A program made the translations under genes and the position numbers. From positions 1 through 43,898 of IMG/VR virus record IMGVR_UViG_3300024346_000137: a stretch of DNA of 43,898 nt. One strand, 5' to 3'. This DNA comes from a virus. The number at the start of each line of letters is the position of its first letter. Position 1 is the first letter of the stretch. Shown piece after piece: positions 27,972 to 41,689 of the stretch. The notes under the pieces are model-generated. The model was not told where the DNA came from. It did not search any database and worked only from the letters and a program-made list of their open reading frames with translations.

Positions 27972-28343
27972 ATGAAAACTGTTAAGCTTTTTCAAATTCT
28001 TTTCGAAGCAGATGATGCAGGTATGAATCTAGACATTGGTAAAGATGTTGCTGATGCCGTCACGCAAGCAATAGAACCTGTTACCAAAGATGTTGAACAG
28101 ATGAAAAAAGATATCAACGTGATTCAAAAAACAACTGGGAAACGTAAAGAGGAACCAACAAACGCACGTTCAACCACAGGAGCTTCCCAATCAGTTTCTG
28201 CTACAACCGTTCCTAAAGGACCGGGAACAGTTTCAACAACAGGAACCAGTAAAACTTCTACTCAAGATGATGGTCTTAAAAAAGATGTTGATGTTATCAA
28301 AAAACAAGTTGGTGACTTAACAGCGATGGCCAAAAACGTTTAA
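27972..28343 (+). CDS. Putative capsid internal protein, coiled coil, 123 aa
   Basis: The N terminus MKTVKLFQILFE-A is the cleanest capsid-targeting-like leader in the window: a short amphipathic helix, then LFE followed by Ala, the form cut by T4-type prohead protease ((I/L)-x-E). Residues 20-50 and 98-123 are charged helices (DVEQMKKDINVIQK; DDGLKKDVDVIKKQVG), bracketing a Ser/Thr/Gly linker. The size and low-complexity charged nature match T4 internal proteins. The function after cleavage is unknown. No clear ribosome-binding site precedes ATG 27972. Confidence 0.72.
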   Translation: MKTVKLFQILFEADDAGMNLDIGKDVADAVTQAIEPVTKDVEQMKKDINVIQKTTGKRKEEPTNARSTTGASQSVSATTVPKGPGTVSTTGTSKTSTQDDGLKKDVDVIKKQVGDLTAMAKNV

Positions 28344-28356
28344 ACAAAAACAGAAC

Positions 28357-29946
28357 CTAAATAGCCACAGGCAACTTAATCGACGGGTGATGCTCGTAAC
28401 TATCCAGTGTCACTTTATCAAAATCAAATCCATCAATATCCATAACAGACTTATCTAACACCAACTTAGGCATTGGATATGGTGTTCTATGCAACTGTTG
28501 TTTCAACGCTTCAACGTGGTTTGAATAAATGTGCAAGTCGCCAAAGGTCATAATTAACTCTCCAACCTCTAGCCCACACACTTGAGCAATCATATGTGTT
28601 AGAAGAGCATATGAAGCAACATTAAAGGGGTTCCCAAGTCCAAGATCATTTGATCTCATATATAACTGACAACTGAGCTTACCATTTACCACATAGAATT
28701 GGAACATCATATGACATGGAGGAAGAGCCATCTTTGGTAATATCGGAACGTTCCATGCAGACACAATAATTCTACGTGAGTCTGGATTTGTTTTTATCTG
28801 CTGAATCACTTCCTTGATTTGGTCTACGATTCTTTTGCGTCTATAAACCATACCCATAGGCGGTTCTATTTTTTCTATTTCAGTATATTTGCCAATAGCC
28901 AATCGTTTACCTGACAATATCTCGGATATCCTTCTGGCATCTAGACTATATTTCTCTGCACATTCTTTTTGCGAGATAAACAACTCTTTTTTATACGTAA
29001 AAGGCATGGTCGCTTTGGCTAATTCTCTGTTGTAAGAAGTATCCAAAAAGATCGTGGTAAATGGACTATATTGTTTTGAACCATAATAGTCTTTGTCCAA
29101 ACAAAAATCAGATGGATTGTGAATCCAAGCGTAGTAAAATGGTACTTGTGTTATAGTTTTACAGAACTCAGCAAAACAATGCCATTGTTCAGAAACAGTG
29201 ACACCATTTCCTCCATATAAAGGATAAGATGGGTGATTTTTGTCATAACAACGAACTATCATATTTGCCCAAAGATTGTATAGTTTACCATCCGTTTTAA
29301 CTGTAGCCTCACCAAGATACCCCACTCCCGCTACGCTTCGATCTAGATAATTCCGAATTTGACCATTTAGTAAATTTGGTCGAGAAACAACAGTGATAAA
29401 CCCATCAGACTGGAATTGTACCTTGTACCTTGTGTTTTTTTCTCCTTTTTTTGATACTTTTTCCAAAACCATGACCATTTGCCCGCTCTTGGTAGAGTGT
29501 AACGTCCCAATTAGTGGATCATTTATATCTGATGAAGGTAATTGTAACGGAATAGCTTTAACTGGCCAAGGAGTCAAATCTGGCGACTTTACGGGTACAA
29601 GAACAATATCATTACTGATTGTTTCCCATCGTCGCCAGGAAAAACCATAAACAGGACCAAGGTTTCCATCTTTATCTGCCCATTCATCCCAGATAGAAAT
29701 ACCGTTTTCTTTTAGCCACTTGATATTAGTGTTCCCTTGGAGGAACCATAGGAGTTCTCCTACAACAGACTTCCAGTGGACTCGTTTCGAGGTTAGGATA
29801 GGGAATCCTAGAGAAAGATCATAACGAGCTTGCCTACCGAAAACCGAGATGGTTCCTGTGCCTGTGCGGTCAGTTTTTTCTACACCATTGGTGAGAACGT
29901 CATTGATTAGATCGAAATAGGTTTGGTCAACGTGATGATATGTCAT
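28357..29946 (-). CDS. thyA: Thymidylate synthase with an in-frame HNH endonuclease insertion
   Basis: The outer parts are ThyA: residues 1-109 (DRTGTGTISVFGRQ, FPILTSKRVHWK, ELLWFLQG, GPVYGFSWRRW) and 374-529 (SRRIIVSAWNV, ALPPC411H, RSNDLGLGNPFN, FGDLHIYSNH, ending KLPVAI). Together they are 265 residues, the normal ThyA length, with catalytic C411 intact. Between them, in one open frame, sits a 264-residue homing-endonuclease-like insert (28828-29619) at the surface loop where E. coli has PTPDGRH. No stop, intein splice residues or space for a group I intron core are seen. The enzyme makes dTMP from dUMP and methylene-THF. Confidence 0.92.
   Translation of the reverse strand: MTYHHVDQTYFDLINDVLTNGVEKTDRTGTGTISVFGRQARYDLSLGFPILTSKRVHWKSVVGELLWFLQGNTNIKWLKENGISIWDEWADKDGNLGPVYGFSWRRWETISNDIVLVPVKSPDLTPWPVKAIPLQLPSSDINDPLIGTLHSTKSGQMVMVLEKVSKKGEKNTRYKVQFQSDGFITVVSRPNLLNGQIRNYLDRSVAGVGYLGEATVKTDGKLYNLWANMIVRCYDKNHPSYPLYGGNGVTVSEQWHCFAEFCKTITQVPFYYAWIHNPSDFCLDKDYYGSKQYSPFTTIFLDTSYNRELAKATMPFTYKKELFISQKECAEKYSLDARRISEILSGKRLAIGKYTEIEKIEPPMGMVYRRKRIVDQIKEVIQQIKTNPDSRRIIVSAWNVPILPKMALPPCHMMFQFYVVNGKLSCQLYMRSNDLGLGNPFNVASYALLTHMIAQVCGLEVGELIMTFGDLHIYSNHVEALKQQLHRTPYPMPKLVLDKSVMDIDGFDFDKVTLDSYEHHPSIKLPVAI
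28828..29619 (-). mobile_element. HNH-type homing endonuclease inserted in thyA
   Basis: The insert (ThyA residues about 110-373) has an N-terminal tether (IGTLHSTKSGQMVMVLE...VQFQSDGFITVV) and then VAGVGYLGEAT. The HNH-like core follows (YNLWANMIVRCYDKN...VSEQWHCFAEFC...FCLDKDYYGSKQYSP), and then a NUMOD1-like DNA-binding helix pair (ISQKECAEKYSLDARRISEILSGKR in parts). This order is typical of phage HNH homing endonucleases found in introns or freestanding. Here it continues the ThyA frame. It lacks the Cys/Ser start and the HN-Cys/Ser/Thr end of inteins. Confidence 0.8.
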
Positions 29947-29977: not shown

Positions 29978-30778
29978 TCAACCATTTAGTATCGATTTAT
30001 AAAGCTTTTGGAGGAATATGATGTTCTCATACAATGGTTTTGAATTAAGAGACAGAGATTTCTCTTTATAAACCAACCCAGCTTTTCTTAGTTTGTCTAG
30101 AGTTACAATCCCATTATCAAAATAAGCATGATTCACAGCTTTACGTATAGTTGCATGCTTATCCTTCGTTTCTTCCGTATCCTCGATCCATGTGTTCCAT
30201 CTTTGATCTTCATGATGACCTGCATAGCAATCATCATCAGTCTCTGGGGTTGAGCCATCCAGATCTAATGGTTTTTTGATTACTTCTGGTCTGGAAGTGA
30301 GGTAGTTTGCCCAAATGTTTGCAGCTTGTGGAGAGACGAGATCTCGGTCGGCAATGAGACCTATTCCCGATTCTCCAAGTTTTGCCAACAAGCAATCGTA
30401 CAGCATCGGCCCGTAACCTTTTACGGCTTCGGACATGCTTATAACCCATGCATTATGACAGGTATATTGATCAAATTTTCTATTTTTTTTACAATCGGCT
30501 GATCCCCATGGGAACAATAATTTTTCAGATTGTGGTTCTTCGTAACGTTTAATACCCGCTCTCGACGCTTGATCGGTCTTCCATTTGTAGCTTACCGGAA
30601 GCTCATAATATTTAATTCGTTCATCGCTGCGTTGATAAACTTGGTACCCATTTGTCAGAAAACAAAAATATACTTCGAGGTGCTGCCCCGACGCATCCTT
30701 AAACGCTATCCCAACTTTATATTCATCGGGCACATGTTTGTTAAACTCTATCAAATCGTCTACTGTTTTTGCTGGCAT
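29978..30778 (-). CDS. GNAT-like phage protein without capsid-targeting leader
   Basis: The 266-aa product carries the motif AVKGYGPMLYDCLLAKL...GLIADRDLVSPQAANIWANYL (about residues 121-165). This is the same core as the four paralogues at 31.8-35.0 kb (RFGPLAYQ...SD...S..A..VW). It resembles GNAT motif A (pantetheine loop) plus the N..A..lY helix, but acetyltransferase function is inferred only. The N terminus (MPAKTVDDLIEFNKHV) does not show the leader of its relatives. AAAAGG lies inside the end of the upstream gene, so translation is coupled. Confidence 0.75.
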   Translation of the reverse strand: MPAKTVDDLIEFNKHVPDEYKVGIAFKDASGQHLEVYFCFLTNGYQVYQRSDERIKYYELPVSYKWKTDQASRAGIKRYEEPQSEKLLFPWGSADCKKNRKFDQYTCHNAWVISMSEAVKGYGPMLYDCLLAKLGESGIGLIADRDLVSPQAANIWANYLTSRPEVIKKPLDLDGSTPETDDDCYAGHHEDQRWNTWIEDTEETKDKHATIRKAVNHAYFDNGIVTLDKLRKAGLVYKEKSLSLNSKPLYENIIFLQKLYKSILNG

Positions 30779-31447: not shown

Positions 31448-31807
31448 ATGTATTGCTTCTCCTCTATTGGTTATCTTCCACTAGCACTAAAAATGCTTAA
31501 TAATCCAAAGCTTCGTGCGAAAGGTTTTATGGGATGGCAACAAGCTCCCAATGATCATTATGGGATGCTTTTTATTCACGATCATGAACATCCACAATCT
31601 TATTGGATGCATACCGTTCCTTTTGATCTAGATTGCCTTGGTTTTGACAAGAACAACAACCTTGTGGAGATCATGCATCTAGATGCCCTCTCAAAGACCT
31701 CCAGAGGTTTTTCTGTGCCCGTAAAGTACGTGGTTGAAGTAAGAGGTGGTTGGTGTAAAGACAAGGGTTTAAAAGGCGGAGAAAAACTAGTTATAAGGAA
31801 GTTATGA
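31448..31807 (+). CDS. DUF192-family protein
   Basis: From ATG 31448 (119 aa; ATG 31493 is an alternative start) the product has the DUF192 pattern: KGFMGWQ, HYGMLFIHDHEHPQSYWMHTV, FDLDCLGFDKNNNLVEI, SVPVKYVVEVRGGWC, and KGLKGGEKLVI. DUF192 proteins are small beta barrels. Most bacterial ones are secreted or lipid-anchored; this one has no real signal peptide. The function is unknown. Its stop overlaps the start of the 31804 gene (ATGA), so it is translated together with the capsid-cargo array. Confidence 0.82.
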   Translation: MYCFSSIGYLPLALKMLNNPKLRAKGFMGWQQAPNDHYGMLFIHDHEHPQSYWMHTVPFDLDCLGFDKNNNLVEIMHLDALSKTSRGFSVPVKYVVEVRGGWCKDKGLKGGEKLVIRKL

Positions 31808-32571
31808 AATTATATCAGATATTATATTCTTTGGACGAAGGTGCAAGAACTGTAATAGAGTCACTAGAAAAAAACGTAGCTGCCAAGGTAATTTTAGATG
31901 ACACGGTTGTTTTATTTTCGACCACTCGAATGCTAAGAATTTTCTTGAAAGGGATGAAATCATCTTTATATCAAGCGAATTTTGAATACTGGAGGGATAG
32001 GATGATCGGCAATGTTGCAAATTCTGCGATTGTTGCGTCCGTTTCTTTCGAACCAACCGCTTCTGATTTATACTCAGTGGGAACTGCTGCGGGTGTTTCC
32101 CGTTTTGGACCTTTGGCATACCAATTAGTCATGCAAAAGATAAAACCAACTAATAGCTGGTTAAAAAGCGATGCTTCTGTTTCTTCAGAGGCTCATAACG
32201 TTTGGAACAAAATGTATCAGCTTCCGGATTTGTATGAGCGTAAATGGCTTGGAGATTTCAAAAACATGTATGTCAGGAATGCTTTACGTACCCATGCTAT
32301 AAAGAACTATGATCCTTCCGTACATGGCACAACTGAAGCTGAAGTTGCTGTATTCTTAGGCGGCACCGGGCAAAATCCACAAGACGTGTTCAAATCTCAT
32401 GGAAATTTGTATGCATACCGCCTTAAAAACGATATCCCAGACTATAAACTGCTTTTCGAAAAAGGCGATATGTTCTTTATAGATTTGGACAAATATGGTA
32501 CATCCCAAATGGAGTTTAAGGATATCTTCGAGAGGGCTGCTAGCAGATTTTTTGGACGACTTTACAAGTAG
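31804..32571 (+). CDS. Capsid-cargo-like GNAT-fold paralogue 1
   Basis: The N terminus MKLYQILYSLDE-G is capsid-targeting-like (L-D-E followed by Gly). The core (residues about 75-160) has AIVASVSFEP, then GVSRFGPLAYQLVMQKI, WLKSDASVSSEAHNVWNKMYQL and LYERKWLG. These match, in order, a GNAT beta4-alpha3 pyrophosphate loop and the later A-x-x-(V/L)-(W/Y) helix. The C-terminal domain has YAYRLKN and FERAASRFFGRLYK. If packaged, it could be delivered with the DNA, as T4 Alt is; the enzyme activity is unknown. It is the first of four tandem homologues. Confidence 0.78.
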   Translation: MKLYQILYSLDEGARTVIESLEKNVAAKVILDDTVVLFSTTRMLRIFLKGMKSSLYQANFEYWRDRMIGNVANSAIVASVSFEPTASDLYSVGTAAGVSRFGPLAYQLVMQKIKPTNSWLKSDASVSSEAHNVWNKMYQLPDLYERKWLGDFKNMYVRNALRTHAIKNYDPSVHGTTEAEVAVFLGGTGQNPQDVFKSHGNLYAYRLKNDIPDYKLLFEKGDMFFIDLDKYGTSQMEFKDIFERAASRFFGRLYK

Positions 32572-32579
32572 AATTAACC

Positions 32580-33383
32580 ATGAAATTATATCCGCTCATT
32601 TACACCAACGAAGCTGCACGAACAACAGAAGAAGCAACGGCCAAAGGCGTTGCAGCTTTTCTAACTGAAGAGAATACCATTGTTTTATTTGTCATAAAAA
32701 GAGTTATTGATATCACAAAACGTTTCGTGGAGAAATACCTAGTAAACGTGCGAAAAGCTTATCACAATGAAATGCTAGGAACAGAGTTGGCCAAAAGATC
32801 GATTGTTGCCGAAATCACAACTGTTTCTGTCGGCGCTAGCACTTCCGATTTAAACAAAGTTGATAGCAGCGCAGGAGTTAGCAGGTTCGGTCCACTGGCA
32901 TATCAACTTGCTATGGCAAACATTCACCCAAACTGGTTAATAAGCGACGTAAGCTTGACAGAAGGCGGTGGCAGCGCCGATGTTTGGAACAAGATGTACG
33001 AGCTATCCACCAAAGGTGTTTATGAAAGAAAATGGCTGGGGGGATATAATCGAAACTCTGCTTATTCACCATTAGTCAGAAGAATGCACACGACTAAAAA
33101 AGGTAGAGAATTGTTTTCCGGCTATACACCAATATATGGTACTTCAGAGGAAGGAATTCAAGCGTTTTTAGAAGATCACGGAAGAGAAAACGAATATTCT
33201 CCTTACGAGTTTGGTTTCTTTTATGCATACCGATTAACCAATCCACAGTCTATTCAAACAACCGGGCTATTCAACGCTGGTGATAATGTTGTGATGGAAA
33301 TGAAGAAACTTGGAATAGATGATCCGAATGAAGTTTTGTCTTCGGCTGGATTCGAATTTTTTGAAAGAAGATATAGGAGTTGA
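32580..33383 (+). CDS. Capsid-cargo-like GNAT-fold paralogue 2
   Basis: The leader is MKLYPLIYTNE-A. It is the closest relative of 31804: SIVAEITTVS, GVSRFGPLAYQLAMANI, WLISDVSLTEG, DVWNKMYEL, VYERKWLGGY, then FFYAYRLTN and a terminal FEFFERRYRS like FGRLYK. It is 267 aa against 255. A GGGS insertion lies just before the VW helix. Close spacing (8 bases after 31804) indicates one mRNA. The divergence (roughly 40 percent identical by eye in the core) suggests old duplication and separate targets rather than redundancy. Confidence 0.78.
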   Translation: MKLYPLIYTNEAARTTEEATAKGVAAFLTEENTIVLFVIKRVIDITKRFVEKYLVNVRKAYHNEMLGTELAKRSIVAEITTVSVGASTSDLNKVDSSAGVSRFGPLAYQLAMANIHPNWLISDVSLTEGGGSADVWNKMYELSTKGVYERKWLGGYNRNSAYSPLVRRMHTTKKGRELFSGYTPIYGTSEEGIQAFLEDHGRENEYSPYEFGFFYAYRLTNPQSIQTTGLFNAGDNVVMEMKKLGIDDPNEVLSSAGFEFFERRYRS

Positions 33384-33385
33384 CC

Positions 33386-34369
33386 ATGAAGTTGAACGAA
33401 ATACTGTTCGAAGGTGCCAAAACCCCCGAGCAAGCTGTTCAGGTTGGTTTGGGTTTGTATATTTCGAAAACGAGTGAAGAGTTGATCTTTATATTGTTTA
33501 GCCCGAAACGTTGCAATGAAGTGATTACATCTTATCAACAAAGACACAAAGGAACTTTAGGTAAAACAGAAAAAGAAAGCACAAAACAATCAGAGCTTTC
33601 AGATCCTTCAAACTTCCCACCGCATGTCATTGGTACTAGTACAAGTAGACGAGTTAATTCAACAATTCCGCCTTGGAAAACAAAAGAAGAACATGAGGAA
33701 TATCTTCGTCAGCAAGCTTTGCAAGAAGCCGTCGATCCTAAACATGCAATGCTAAATTGGCTGGCAATTCAACTTGGTAATCGGGCAGTTATCGGTTCTG
33801 TAACAGCTACATGGAAAAATACCGAGGAGAGAGATGATCTTTGGAAAGTTGACACTTCTTCGGCGGTTCAAAAATACGGACCTTTGATATATGAAATGGT
33901 AATGGGTTCGATATACCCAGAATATTTACGCTCTGATTACTCACTTACACCAGCCTCACGCAAAGTTTGGAATGTAATGATTACTCGTGAAGACGTACAA
34001 CGTAGCTGGGTCGGTGAGTGGGGACCGGCTGAACTAGTAACCAGTTGGGCTGTGTCTGATATGTCTAGACAATTAAATCTACTGGACATCTTAACCAAAA
34101 TAGAAGAAGAAGAACCAATGACCGAGAAAGCGTTCAATTCTAACTTCGTTAGAATACTAGATGCCAACAACATGCAAAAGCTTGGTCCATTTTATGCATA
34201 TCGCCGCAAATCGAACGTCCCAGCGAAACTTATTGAAGCTGGTAACTCAGCGATTCAAGACTTAGCTGATAGCTTTAAAGTCAGCGAAAATGATATCAAA
34301 ACAGTATTAGAAAATGCTTCCGGCATACAGTTCGAACGTTTATACAACAAAAACAGGAGAACAACATGA
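33386..34369 (+). CDS. Capsid-cargo-like GNAT-fold paralogue 3
   Basis: The start is ATG 33386 with AGGAG nine bases before it. The leader MKLNEILFE-G has an ideal LFE cut before Gly. At 327 aa it is the longest paralogue, with an inserted linker (residues about 50-110: KGTLGKTEKESTKQSEL through the Pro/Lys-rich TIPPWKTKEEHEEY). The core follows: AVIGSVTATW, AVQKYGPLIYEMVMGSI, YLRSDYSLTPASRKVWNVM and SWVGEWG. It ends FYAYRRK and IQFERLYNK. It starts 3 bases after the previous stop and overlaps the next start by 4 bases. Confidence 0.78.
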   Translation: MKLNEILFEGAKTPEQAVQVGLGLYISKTSEELIFILFSPKRCNEVITSYQQRHKGTLGKTEKESTKQSELSDPSNFPPHVIGTSTSRRVNSTIPPWKTKEEHEEYLRQQALQEAVDPKHAMLNWLAIQLGNRAVIGSVTATWKNTEERDDLWKVDTSSAVQKYGPLIYEMVMGSIYPEYLRSDYSLTPASRKVWNVMITREDVQRSWVGEWGPAELVTSWAVSDMSRQLNLLDILTKIEEEEPMTEKAFNSNFVRILDANNMQKLGPFYAYRRKSNVPAKLIEAGNSAIQDLADSFKVSENDIKTVLENASGIQFERLYNKNRRTT

Positions 34370-35028
34370 AATTATATCCATTGCTGTTTCTAAACGAAGC
34401 TCAAGTTTTTGCTTCCGAGGCTTATAAACAAGGTTATGTTTTGGTTGAAACAAATTTTGATTCAAAAATCACTTTGGTTTTGATCAACAAAAATCAAATC
34501 AAGGATGCTGCTGGAAACTTGAGACAAACTGGAGACGGAATTGTGCAAGGATATCTCTCATTCATGCTTCTAGAAGAAGGAGATGTTGCAGAGGTTCGTG
34601 CGGCGAGTGCTATCCAAGGTTGGGGTCCGTTGCTTTACCAAGCCGCAATGAAAAAAATCTCACCAAATTGGCTGGCTAGCGATACCAATCTGTCTGAAGA
34701 TGCAAACGAAGTTTGGAACAAAATGTACCAGTTAACAAACTTGTATATTCGCAAATATATCGGCAATATGAGCAGTGATAGATACGAATGTTGTGCTAGT
34801 GTGCTTAATTCAATTCCTAGCGATGATGAATTGTTAACGGAACAAGATTTCCTGAATTTCTTACAAACTCAAAATATACCACCAGAGAATGCTGGTTGTT
34901 TCTGGGCTTACAAAAAGAAAAATCATGAACCGCAAATCAGTATCATGCTTAAAGAAGGAAACACAATACTAAAAACTGTTGGGACCGATCAAATCTTCGA
35001 ATGGGTTAACTCAGCAAATTTGCCGTAA
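34366..35028 (+). CDS. Capsid-cargo-like GNAT-fold paralogue 4
   Basis: The leader is MKLYPLLFLNE-A (L-N-E followed by Ala). This is the shortest member (220 aa). A compact N-terminal sheet is followed by AIQGWGPLLYQAAMKKI, WLASDTNLSEDANEVWNKMYQL and LYIRKYIGNM, then CFWAYKKKN. The terminal FERLY-type motif of its siblings is replaced by IFEWVNSANLP. It is coupled to 33386 by an ATGA overlap and is the last gene of the tandem set. Confidence 0.78.
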   Translation: MKLYPLLFLNEAQVFASEAYKQGYVLVETNFDSKITLVLINKNQIKDAAGNLRQTGDGIVQGYLSFMLLEEGDVAEVRAASAIQGWGPLLYQAAMKKISPNWLASDTNLSEDANEVWNKMYQLTNLYIRKYIGNMSSDRYECCASVLNSIPSDDELLTEQDFLNFLQTQNIPPENAGCFWAYKKKNHEPQISIMLKEGNTILKTVGTDQIFEWVNSANLP

Positions 35029-35033
35029 GGTTA

Positions 35034-35639
35034 TCAAGTATTTTCGATATCTTTATCTAACTTAGGTGAGCCTGTCTTTACAGGTTCTTCTGGATCTTCT
35101 AAACCTTTCCACAACCCCGGCATAGCTGGACCTTTGAAATCTGGTTTGTGCATCGCTCCAAAGCTTTCTTGAATATCGTGTTCGTATTCTAAAGTAACAT
35201 CAAGCCTTGGAAAGCTTTCATCTGCAATTTCTGCTTTGGTTGCTGGACGAACATCGTCAAGATTGCATATCATCCATTGCCCATCTGGACCATGGCAAAG
35301 AACGCCGTTATTACGGAAAGCCAACATAAGCTTTCTTTTCTCTTCTGGGGGTATGTCGAGTTTTTCTATTTCGAAATCTTTTGGTTCATAGTCGTTATAT
35401 GCTACGTGAGGCATTTCTTGAAGAGCCAAAGCTTTTGGATCATGCAAAGCCGGAGAGCCGGTGGTGACTTTTCCTTTACGACGTTTCTTTACCTTTTGAC
35501 CCGGTTTCATTCCAAGAGGAAGTTGCATACCGCCACTGATTTGACCAGAAGGAGCCAAAGAAGCTCCTCCTGCACTTATAGCCATCGCTTCTTCTAGCTC
35601 TTCTTCTTCAAACAAAAAATCTTTTAGTTTGTTTCTCAT
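35034..35639 (-). CDS. Putative capsid internal protein, 201 aa
   Basis: The leader is MRNKLKDFLFE-EEELEEAM, with two candidate cuts (LFE, LEE-A), as on the neighbouring cargo proteins. A Gly/Ser-rich segment follows, then KPGQKVKKRRKGKV, strongly basic (residues about 47-58), which could contact packaged DNA. The C-terminal part is acidic and proline-rich (DPEEPVKTGSPKLDKD). There is no named family. It faces the GP88-like gene divergently and ends 5 bases from the GNAT array. Confidence 0.7.
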   Translation of the reverse strand: MRNKLKDFLFEEEELEEAMAISAGGASLAPSGQISGGMQLPLGMKPGQKVKKRRKGKVTTGSPALHDPKALALQEMPHVAYNDYEPKDFEIEKLDIPPEEKRKLMLAFRNNGVLCHGPDGQWMICNLDDVRPATKAEIADESFPRLDVTLEYEHDIQESFGAMHKPDFKGPAMPGLWKGLEDPEEPVKTGSPKLDKDIENT

Positions 35640-35678: not shown

Positions 35679-37082
35679 ATGAGAGACAAAAGTTATCGTC
35701 GGTTCTTGTTCAAAGAAGCAACACAAGCTTCTGGAGAAAATATCTTTGCAAACGCTGAAGTTATGACACCCGCAGAGTTCGTTCAAAACTACGGGAAAGA
35801 AGAAGAATCACAAGAAATGACAAACGAACAAAAGCTTGTCAGCCTTTATGAGATTCTTTTCGAAGCAAAGAAAGGTTATCAAAAACGTTTTGCGAAACCG
35901 CCACAAACAGTTCTGACTCCCGGTGGAGATATCAAAGGTGTCGAAGTAGATCCAGAAAGACTAAGCGGTGTTCTTGCAGCTCGTGCTGGTAAAGGAAAAC
36001 TTCCGCAAGATATTCCATACATTCACCCTGGTACTGCTTCATCAACCTTGGTGCCGCCATCATCTTTAACAAAAAAGAAAACCGAAGAACAACCAGCATC
36101 TCCGGATGAAATTGTTGTTGTAGACGAACATAACAAACCCATCGATTTGCGGATTCTTGCTCGTAGTCTAACAGACTACAGCAATCCAAAATTCGAACTT
36201 CTAAAACAAAACGAAAAAATGAAGAAGAGTTCAACTGGAGAATACGAAGCCTTTTATAACATTGGGATACCAGCTATCATGGGTATGGTCTTTGATGAAA
36301 AAGACAATAAATTCAAGATCATCAACACCTGTCCATCGGCAGGATCATGTATGCATGTATGTTATGCTACCAAGGGTGGCTATGTCCAATACCAAGCTGT
36401 TTCAGAAAAACAAAACCTTACATTAAACCTTCTTTATAATCACCCAGATCAATATGTTGATAAGGCTGTTGATGAAATCGTTGAGGTTGTAAAAAAACAT
36501 GCTGGCCCATCGAAAGATCTACCAAAAGGCATCAAAACAGTTATTCGCTGGCACGACTCTGGGGATTTTTTCTCTGAAGATTATCTTCGACTAACACTAC
36601 ACATCATCGAACGTGTAAGATCTTCACTCCCATCTTTTTACCATGATTTTGTTCAATTTTACGCTTATACAAAACGTGCCAAAATGGTGGAGCCATTTCA
36701 AGGCAAAGGTCTACTTCTCCGCAAATCTATTGGAGCAAAACCGGAGGAAGAACGTGAGATTCACCCAGACAAAGATCTGTTCTCTCAAATCGTTCCCAAG
36801 TCTGTAAAAGATGACATGATGAAACAAGGTGTAATCGAAAAAACTGAAGACAAATGGATTGTCAATCCCGGCAAGGACGACGTTTTAAAGAAAGCCATCA
36901 AAGCTAGCTCGGAAGTAAAATTCAAAAACTCCTACCCGATGCTTACAATGGCCGAATACGAAGATATCGAAGATACACTCAAAGGAACCGACAAAAAAGT
37001 CAACGTCGTCATTCTTCCCGGCGAAAATGATCGTCCAGCTAAAGATCCAAACGTTGCCGGTGTTTATCTAATGTTCCATTGA
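35679..37082 (+). CDS. GP88-family protein with two capsid-targeting-like motifs
   Basis: The 467-aa product follows AAAGGTGAT at the ATG. Its N terminus MRDKSYRRFLFKE-A looks like the shared leader. A second, better copy lies at residues 47-62 (MTNEQKLVSLYEILFE-A). The rest matches the phage GP88 family: TC218PSAGSC224MHVC228YA, IRWHDSGDFFSEDYL (289-303), QFYAYTKRAK (326-335), and a C-terminal VVILPGENDR-type end. The three Cys suggest metal or [Fe-S] binding (inference). The function of GP88 proteins is unknown. About 80 residues between the leaders and the domain are Pro/Lys-rich. Confidence 0.8.
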   Translation: MRDKSYRRFLFKEATQASGENIFANAEVMTPAEFVQNYGKEEESQEMTNEQKLVSLYEILFEAKKGYQKRFAKPPQTVLTPGGDIKGVEVDPERLSGVLAARAGKGKLPQDIPYIHPGTASSTLVPPSSLTKKKTEEQPASPDEIVVVDEHNKPIDLRILARSLTDYSNPKFELLKQNEKMKKSSTGEYEAFYNIGIPAIMGMVFDEKDNKFKIINTCPSAGSCMHVCYATKGGYVQYQAVSEKQNLTLNLLYNHPDQYVDKAVDEIVEVVKKHAGPSKDLPKGIKTVIRWHDSGDFFSEDYLRLTLHIIERVRSSLPSFYHDFVQFYAYTKRAKMVEPFQGKGLLLRKSIGAKPEEEREIHPDKDLFSQIVPKSVKDDMMKQGVIEKTEDKWIVNPGKDDVLKKAIKASSEVKFKNSYPMLTMAEYEDIEDTLKGTDKKVNVVILPGENDRPAKDPNVAGVYLMFH

Positions 37083-37094
37083 CCGGTCACTACG

Positions 37095-37505
37095 ATGAAA
37101 CAAAAGCTAAAAACAATCATTAAACGTATCATCGCTGAAGAACTTCAAAATGAAGGCAAAGGATATCTTAGAGGCGCTGCACTTGCTGGTTTGCTGGCTC
37201 TAGGCGCAGGCAAAATGGCTGGTGGCGCAAAACCTGACTCAACAACTCAAACACAACAAATTGATACCGTAAATTCTCTTGCAGAATTCGCTGTGAATAA
37301 TCTTGGTAATGACATCGATGGAATGAGTCAAGAAGAAATGCTTGTTGGCAACAAGCTTGAAGATATCAAAAATTTTCAGGGAAATGACGAAAGTTTATTT
37401 GAGGAGCTCAGAGTTTTAGCCGTTAGACTTCAACGAGCTCATATCGATTCTGCAAACGCAGATGAATATCTAGAAAGATATTTTAAACTAAAAACAAGAA
37501 GATAA
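37095..37505 (+). CDS. Putative capsid internal protein, 136 aa
   Basis: The basic leader MKQKLKTIIKRIIAE-E (I-A-E) with a following LQNE-G resembles the cargo leaders. It is succeeded by a short Gly/Ala-rich hydrophobic segment (residues 26-44, AALAGLLALGAGKMAGGA) that could be a weak membrane or packing helix. The remainder is an acidic, helical domain (SLAEFAVNNLGNDIDGM; DEYLERYF). It starts 12 bases after the GP88-like gene and ends flush against the convergent nrdA stop at 37506. No family is recognised. Confidence 0.68.
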   Translation: MKQKLKTIIKRIIAEELQNEGKGYLRGAALAGLLALGAGKMAGGAKPDSTTQTQQIDTVNSLAEFAVNNLGNDIDGMSQEEMLVGNKLEDIKNFQGNDESLFEELRVLAVRLQRAHIDSANADEYLERYFKLKTRR

Positions 37506-41648: not shown

Positions 41649-41689
41649 ATTCTTGTTGCTCCGTTTGGGATGAAAGATAGCCTAGAACT

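Follow-up and report, generated by a model that had tools for sequence, protein, structure and literature searches.

Tandem GNAT-like proteins with predicted capsid-targeting leaders as candidate internal head proteins of a T4-related phage

The internal proteins IPI, IPII and IPIII of bacteriophage T4 are small and basic (8-20 kDa), begin with a short tag of the form MK-x-Y ... x-x-E↓A (here and below the arrow marks the known or predicted cut) and are cleaved by the prohead protease gp21 (PMC9026906). Targeting of IPIII requires no more than its first ten residues, with positions 4 and 7 weighing most for targeting and positions 8 and 10 for processing; a form with Asp at position 10 still reaches the head but escapes processing (PMC9026906). 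Across the T-even phages the internal proteins form a diverse set in which only the targeting sequence is conserved in common (PMC3012670). The virion-borne T4 proteins Alt and IPI are also active in the host (PMC9026906). For the GNAT domains of the phage polyvalent proteins, which form two families and sometimes lie beside ADP-ribosyltransferase (ART) domains, packaging and an action on host proteins have been predicted (Iyer et al. 2017, PMC5512222), and Rac of phiKMV-like phages is a cytoplasmic phage GNAT that acts on the host RNA polymerase alpha subunit (PMC7552054). Here we describe a 43.9-kb fragment of a virus record (IMG/VR IMGVR_UViG_3300024346_000137; hereafter the window, to whose whole length all positions refer unless a relative is named) that codes for a tandem array of four proteins with a predicted GNAT-like fold, and we propose that these are probably internal head proteins of a T4-related phage, which would be taken up into the head, trimmed by proteolysis and passed into the cell along with the DNA to act on the host.

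The array resembles the T4 internal proteins in its short N-terminal tag, in the placement of a constant tag on divergent bodies and in the presence of a T4-type prohead protease and a gp23 capsid protein in its relatives, and differs from them in being a single tandem family of 220-327 residues with a GNAT-like fold. With T4 Alt and its intracellular counterparts ModA and ModB it would share an enzyme fold, head delivery after removal of a short propeptide and a leaderless intracellular relative; however, Alt is a single-copy protein of the ART fold, whereas the array has four copies of a GNAT-like fold with a putative activity. Like the GNATs of the polyvalent proteins, its domains are predicted to be packaged and directed at the host. 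In contrast to those large, multi-domain polypeptides, each array protein has one recognised domain and its own targeting tag, domain fusions being confined to relatives (to DUF192 in L021, to nucleotidyltransferase-like domains in L077 and L098, and inside a tape-measure-like protein in L060). The likeness to Rac lies in a phage-encoded predicted GNAT with a proposed action on host proteins, although Rac is a single gene.

The four open reading frames (ORFs) of the array abut or overlap on the plus strand between a DUF192 gene and the gene at 35034(-) (Table 1). They are true tandem paralogues with similarity far above chance: within the window, tblastn with the 31804 protein as query recovered the other copies with E-values of 6.8e-36, 3.3e-19 and 6.6e-15. 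This bears out a preliminary description made from the sequence alone, as do its motifs, read here as [FYW]GPLxY[QE]xxM, [WY]LxSD, VWNxM and (F/L/W)xAY(R/K), which recur in constant order in all four copies. Among 20 members, M1 and E12 of the leader and G102, P103, Y106, D123, W134 and Y205 are invariant. The linker insertions ascribed to the array hold mainly for 33386, which is about 60 residues longer and whose ATG lies 6 nucleotides inside a TTG-start ORF, and not as a general feature. Searches of the four proteins and a fifth, leaderless relative at 29978(-) against Pfam, PHROGs and NCBIfam gave no significant match; tblastn against 50,697 phage records found no relative of the array proteins, and in INPHARED phages (searched by megablast and tblastn with queries taken from the array and its homologues) the GNAT-fold domain was unmatched, the match of a 646-residue fusion query being limited to its C-terminal nucleotidyltransferase part. 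A single scan of GTDB genome contigs confirmed no relative.

Nevertheless, two structure models, a bridging homologue and the position of its coenzyme A (CoA) loop lead us to accept, with high confidence, a GNAT-like fold for the array proteins, as had been suggested previously. The AlphaFold model of 31804, built from 20 sequences, has a mean predicted local distance difference test (pLDDT) score of 86.7, and 45 of its top 50 PDB matches are acetyltransferases, the best being YjdJ (probability 0.94, E 0.22). The model of L059, a compact homologue (35 sequences, pLDDT 78.9), draws acetyltransferases in 43 of its top 50 matches, including GCN5, PCAF, PaiA, RimI and Mom, with a best E-value of 0.014 and a probability of 0.97. 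In the same comparison an ART fold was considered and set aside, no ART being among the PDB matches listed for either model. The bridge is the protein at 614-1339 of L071, which is matched by a profile of array sequences only (E 1.5e-5) and also passes the Pfam threshold for PF00583 (Acetyltransf_1; 24.4 versus 20.7 bits); it has VEPALQDQGFGKLLY, with the canonical QxxGxG loop in the form QDQGFG, at the position where 31804 has GTAAGVSRFGPLAY.

Each of the four proteins further begins with a leader, MKLYPLLFLNE↓A or a variant of it, that is disordered in the model (residues 1-12 of 31804 have pLDDT below 50) and yet is the most conserved segment, with an identity of 0.67 versus 0.32 for the rest and a higher value in 370 of 378 pairs. 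As Leu3 is encoded by all six leucine codons, the constraint acts on the peptide. The leaders are similar to the MKTYQEFIAE↓A with which T4 IPII and IPIII start (read from NC_000866). In most of them the ending is (L/I/T)NE↓A/G, which resembles LNE↓S, the cleavage site as aligned in the gp23-type capsid proteins of relatives. There MLNE↓S (G001, G006, G007 and G008) stands opposite the cut position FLTE↓A of T4 gp23, whose propeptide has 65 residues (PMC9026906), and the leader ending therefore looks like a site for cleavage by the protease of the phage itself. By sequence, the array leaders are candidate short N-terminal targeting sequences that end in a prohead-protease site. Scored one by one for similarity to the T4 sequence, the leaders lay above the mean of shuffles and of other N termini but, for most copies, within their range; thus the resemblance to T4 alone is no proof, and the argument for the leader draws jointly on its conservation, the cleavage site and the context.

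This context includes genes outside the array. The earlier claim of one leader per copy stands for all four, although not as an array-specific trait, since similar leaders precede the proteins at 27972, 35034(-), 35679 and 37095. In a syntenic 119-kb relative, a strict leader rule fits 12 of 149 N termini, a count that includes two genes of the array and a few N termini that are not leaders, versus 1.8 +/- 1.3 in shuffles and 3 of 477 internal methionines. The leader rules were self-defined, and the genome-wide rule also catches probably unleadered proteins, such as those at 41672 and 66249 of G001. Leader-like N termini were also observed on the proteins at 10097-11176 of L010 and 9474-10708 of L013 (G001), which contain FDFD(D/H)T, a motif characteristic of HAD phosphatases.

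Full-size relatives of the window have the head genes expected of such a route, namely a gp23-type capsid protein (phrog_138), portal and terminase, and a T4-type prohead protease (Peptidase_S77, E 4e-28); the S77 protease and the gp23 capsid protein occur together in G001, G006, G007, G008 and G031. In L022 a GNAT gene lies directly 3' of the capsid gene, and downstream of the capsid gene of L026 (118-9442) are a leadered ART-PolyVal gene (PF18760, E 5e-10), a leadered GNAT gene and then a further pair of leadered genes, of which one has a weak ParB-like match. The S77 protease of the L026 phage contains an intein-like insert.

Taking these observations together, we posit that the phage of the window is a T4-related myovirus of the gp23/S77-protease type, in which each array protein would be synthesized late with a capsid-targeting leader of 9-12 residues. 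The leader would bind the prohead core and the prohead protease would cut after its glutamate (L/I/T-x-E↓A/G), leaving the mature GNAT-fold protein to be retained in the head and to enter the host together with the DNA. There it might modify proteins, or merely bind them if the degenerate loop is inactive, for takeover or defence evasion, and tandem duplication would have produced a set of divergent bodies that share a single, constant address tag. The previous suggestion that the proteins are effectors at the start of infection is plausible in the sense of head entry with the DNA, as for the T4 internal proteins, although the leader evidence does not point to early expression. The T4-style late promoter TATAAATA is no more frequent near the array than in shuffles and is uninformative, so that late expression is not shown by it.

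Syntenic loci in IMG/VR with the DUF192-array arrangement point to copy-number turnover: beside a near-identical twin (L005), the array has six copies in L006, four in L007 and two each in L018 and L020 (the latter at a contig end), while L008 and L009 have four and L019 six, each with the leaderless fifth. A maximum-likelihood tree recovers several old paralogue lineages of which a different subset is kept in each phage. The ratio of nonsynonymous to synonymous substitution rates (dN/dS) is 0.10-0.15 for well-separated orthologues, which places them under purifying selection; it is higher in near-identical pairs, where it rests on few changes. The description of the array as diversifying therefore survives as regards old lineages and turnover, and not as current positive selection, which these ratios do not support.

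When 18 array copies with leaders were combined into a profile and run against the 2572 ORFs of all loci, the profile matched 79 distinct ORFs (E <0.01), most of which carry GYGP[LM]xY[DE] with similarity reaching well beyond the motif, a conservation and count that are partly built in for L058-L100, whose homologues were gathered by motif pattern. The leader rule fits 60 of the 79, where matches include some wrong starts and misses include cut or fused proteins. Tandem copies recur in L096, L065, L071, L092, L090, L063 and G031. The last of these (273 kb) has ten profile matches, nine of them within 250-262.5 kb, in an island (248.4-263.7 kb, or 2447-17663 of L103) of about 18 consecutive genes that combine varied bodies with a near-constant leader of the MKxLRQYIRKILLTE type, whose identity is 0.57 versus 0.27 for the rest and higher in 158 of 171 pairs. 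Nine of the island genes are GNAT-like, ten others have no Pfam match, and one further gene reads YYHGTP like ARTs, without Pfam support. At 7470-8591 of L021, DUF192 is fused in frame to the GNAT-fold domain, and the segment PSLSDILFE↓G that separates the two resembles a protease site within the protein.

Several observations weigh against our proposal. The window is a fragment without head genes of its own, those having been deduced from syntenic relatives; in G001 the array lies about 65 kb from the capsid gene; and the S77 protease is present in only 9 of the 22 large records that carry the domain, so some relatives may have incomplete sequences or depend on a different head protease or route, as perhaps in L060, whose domain sits within a tape-measure-like protein. 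With regard to the fold, no structural match in the PDB fell below an E-value of 0.001, TM-scores (a measure of structural similarity) were about 0.2-0.4, and a search of the PDB by sequence profile gave nothing significant. Finally, as had been recognised, the loop reads GPL rather than the common Q/R-x-x-G-x-G/A: the Q/R is absent in all 27 array copies and the first glycine is kept in 8 of them, 34366 being the sole window copy to keep G-x-G (GWG) and 31804 reading RFG, whereas G-x-G is retained by 50 of the 52 single-copy relatives, which mostly have alanine in place of Q/R. Furthermore, the array A/S-x-x-V-W-N-K stands, in an alignment by eye, opposite the GNAT pattern A-x-x-L-Y-E-K, so that the usual tyrosine of GNATs is a tryptophan.

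The degenerate loop makes catalysis by the array less certain and, together with the tryptophan, suggests that the array could be non-enzymatic; we hence regard the copies as GNAT-like in fold, make no claim to canonical GNAT enzyme status, and consider it possible, albeit somewhat doubtful, that they are active enzymes. Such degeneration would fit packaged structural or core-assembly factors built on a dead GNAT fold, whose copies would adjust the assembly of the head or the condensation of the DNA while being inert in the host. T4 IPIII does affect head assembly (PMC9026906), and factors of this kind would explain the leader evidence equally well. We nonetheless consider them unlikely, as copy number and identity vary among close relatives (2 to 6), the bodies are only about 27% identical, unlike those of core-assembly proteins, and the like-tagged neighbours include an ADP-ribosyltransferase domain. 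Nor would a structural location in the virion decide against an effector role, because Alt and IPI are virion-borne and yet act in the host (PMC9026906).

The fifth relative at 29978(-) carries YGPMLYDCLL and AANIWANYL, as previously noted, and is matched by the profile of leader-bearing array copies only (E 2.9e-6, residues 108-172), and is thus a remote relative of the array whose N-terminal half differs. The orthologues present in L008 and L019 adjoin thyA and likewise lack a leader, and the start of 29978, MPAKTVDDL...VPDEYKV, aligns by eye with the mature start of a leadered homologue in L070 (E↓AAKTIES-IPSEYKV). By analogy with ModA and ModB relative to Alt in T4, it may be a version made inside the cell. 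This leaderless protein, along with the precedent of Rac (PMC7552054), would also be consistent with the array encoding non-packaged cytoplasmic GNAT effectors or anti-defence proteins, with a leader that serves localisation or translation and has no connection with the head; we judge this improbable, as the leader ends in x-x-E↓A/G/S like the capsid protein cleavage site, occurs also on genes of no common origin with the array and is similar to the targeting sequence of T4. A different alpha/beta fold with a fortuitous loop resemblance would account for the poor PDB E-values and the missing Pfam matches of the array proteins themselves, but is very improbable in view of the nearly uniform acetyltransferase matches of two independent models and of a Pfam-passing bridge with its canonical residues at the same loop.

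The remaining genes of the window, read from their translations, include tail-fibre-like, nucleotide-metabolism and replication genes, and Rfam gave no match at 26-38 kb. The residues that follow the leader of 35034(-) read AISAGGASLAPSGQISGG and resemble the mature N terminus of the capsid proteins of relatives (SLSTGGASLASSGQVAG; SAGGASLAPSGQISGG). The GP88-domain protein at 35679 has a terminal and an internal leader-like segment, as if processed twice. The minus-strand gene at 28357-29946 codes for a 529-residue thymidylate synthase with an in-frame insert of about 260 residues after GFSWRRW that has similarity to HNH endonucleases (phrog_2081, E 3e-41); the gene is uninterrupted in L008 and L019, and the insert may be an intron, an intein or a disrupting insertion.

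Table 1. Array genes, predicted leaders and neighbouring genes in the window (arrows mark predicted cuts)
Feature	Coordinates	Strand	Description
DUF192 protein (PF02643)	31448..31807	+	first gene of array operon; stop overlaps array start
Array copy 1	31804..32571	+	255 aa, GNAT-fold protein (predicted), leader MKLYQILYSLDE↓GAR
Leader of copy 1	31804..31839	+	predicted capsid-targeting propeptide, cut after E12
Array copy 2	32580..33383	+	267 aa, leader MKLYPLIYTNE↓AAR
Leader of copy 2	32580..32612	+	
Array copy 3	33386..34369	+	327 aa, ~60-aa insertion before GNAT core, leader MKLNEILFE↓GAK
Leader of copy 3	33386..33412	+	
Array copy 4	34366..35028	+	220 aa, leader MKLYPLLFLNE↓AQV
Leader of copy 4	34366..34398	+	
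Fifth relative, leaderless	29978..30778	-	266 aa, KGYGPMLYD
Leader-bearing neighbour	27972..28343	+	leader MKTVKLFQILFE↓ADD; identical leader in G001 orthologue
Leader-bearing neighbour	35034..35639	-	leader MRNKLKDFLFE↓EEE
GP88-domain protein (PF17338)	35679..37082	+	N-terminal leader and second internal leader-like segment LVSLYEILFE↓AKK
Leader-bearing neighbour	37095..37505	+	leader MKQKLKTIIKRIIAEE

Capsid targeting has been worked out on the T4 internal proteins and packaged GNATs have been predicted in polyvalent proteins; the array family unites both, and what is new in it is the occurrence of single GNAT-fold proteins in tandem behind a readable address tag, so that the known T4 delivery route would carry a new and multiplied cargo. 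A search of the open-access literature returned no paper joining ‘capsid targeting sequence’, ‘acetyltransferase’ and ‘phage’, though reports may exist elsewhere. More speculatively, T4-related large phages might keep a re-dealt arsenal in which a constant tag is combined with multiplied GNAT-fold and other bodies, each a host-directed acylating enzyme or binder delivered from the head; the CoA loop of the window copies would then be in the course of being rebuilt, some copies having acquired new chemistry or become pseudoenzymes. If our proposal is true, the tag would reveal the head cargo of a large phage from its sequence alone and nominate host-directed effectors that have no Pfam or PHROG matches, including those of cargo islands of about 18 genes, and the array would allow a direct test of the idea that acyl-transfer enzymes reach the host from a phage ahead of all phage gene expression.

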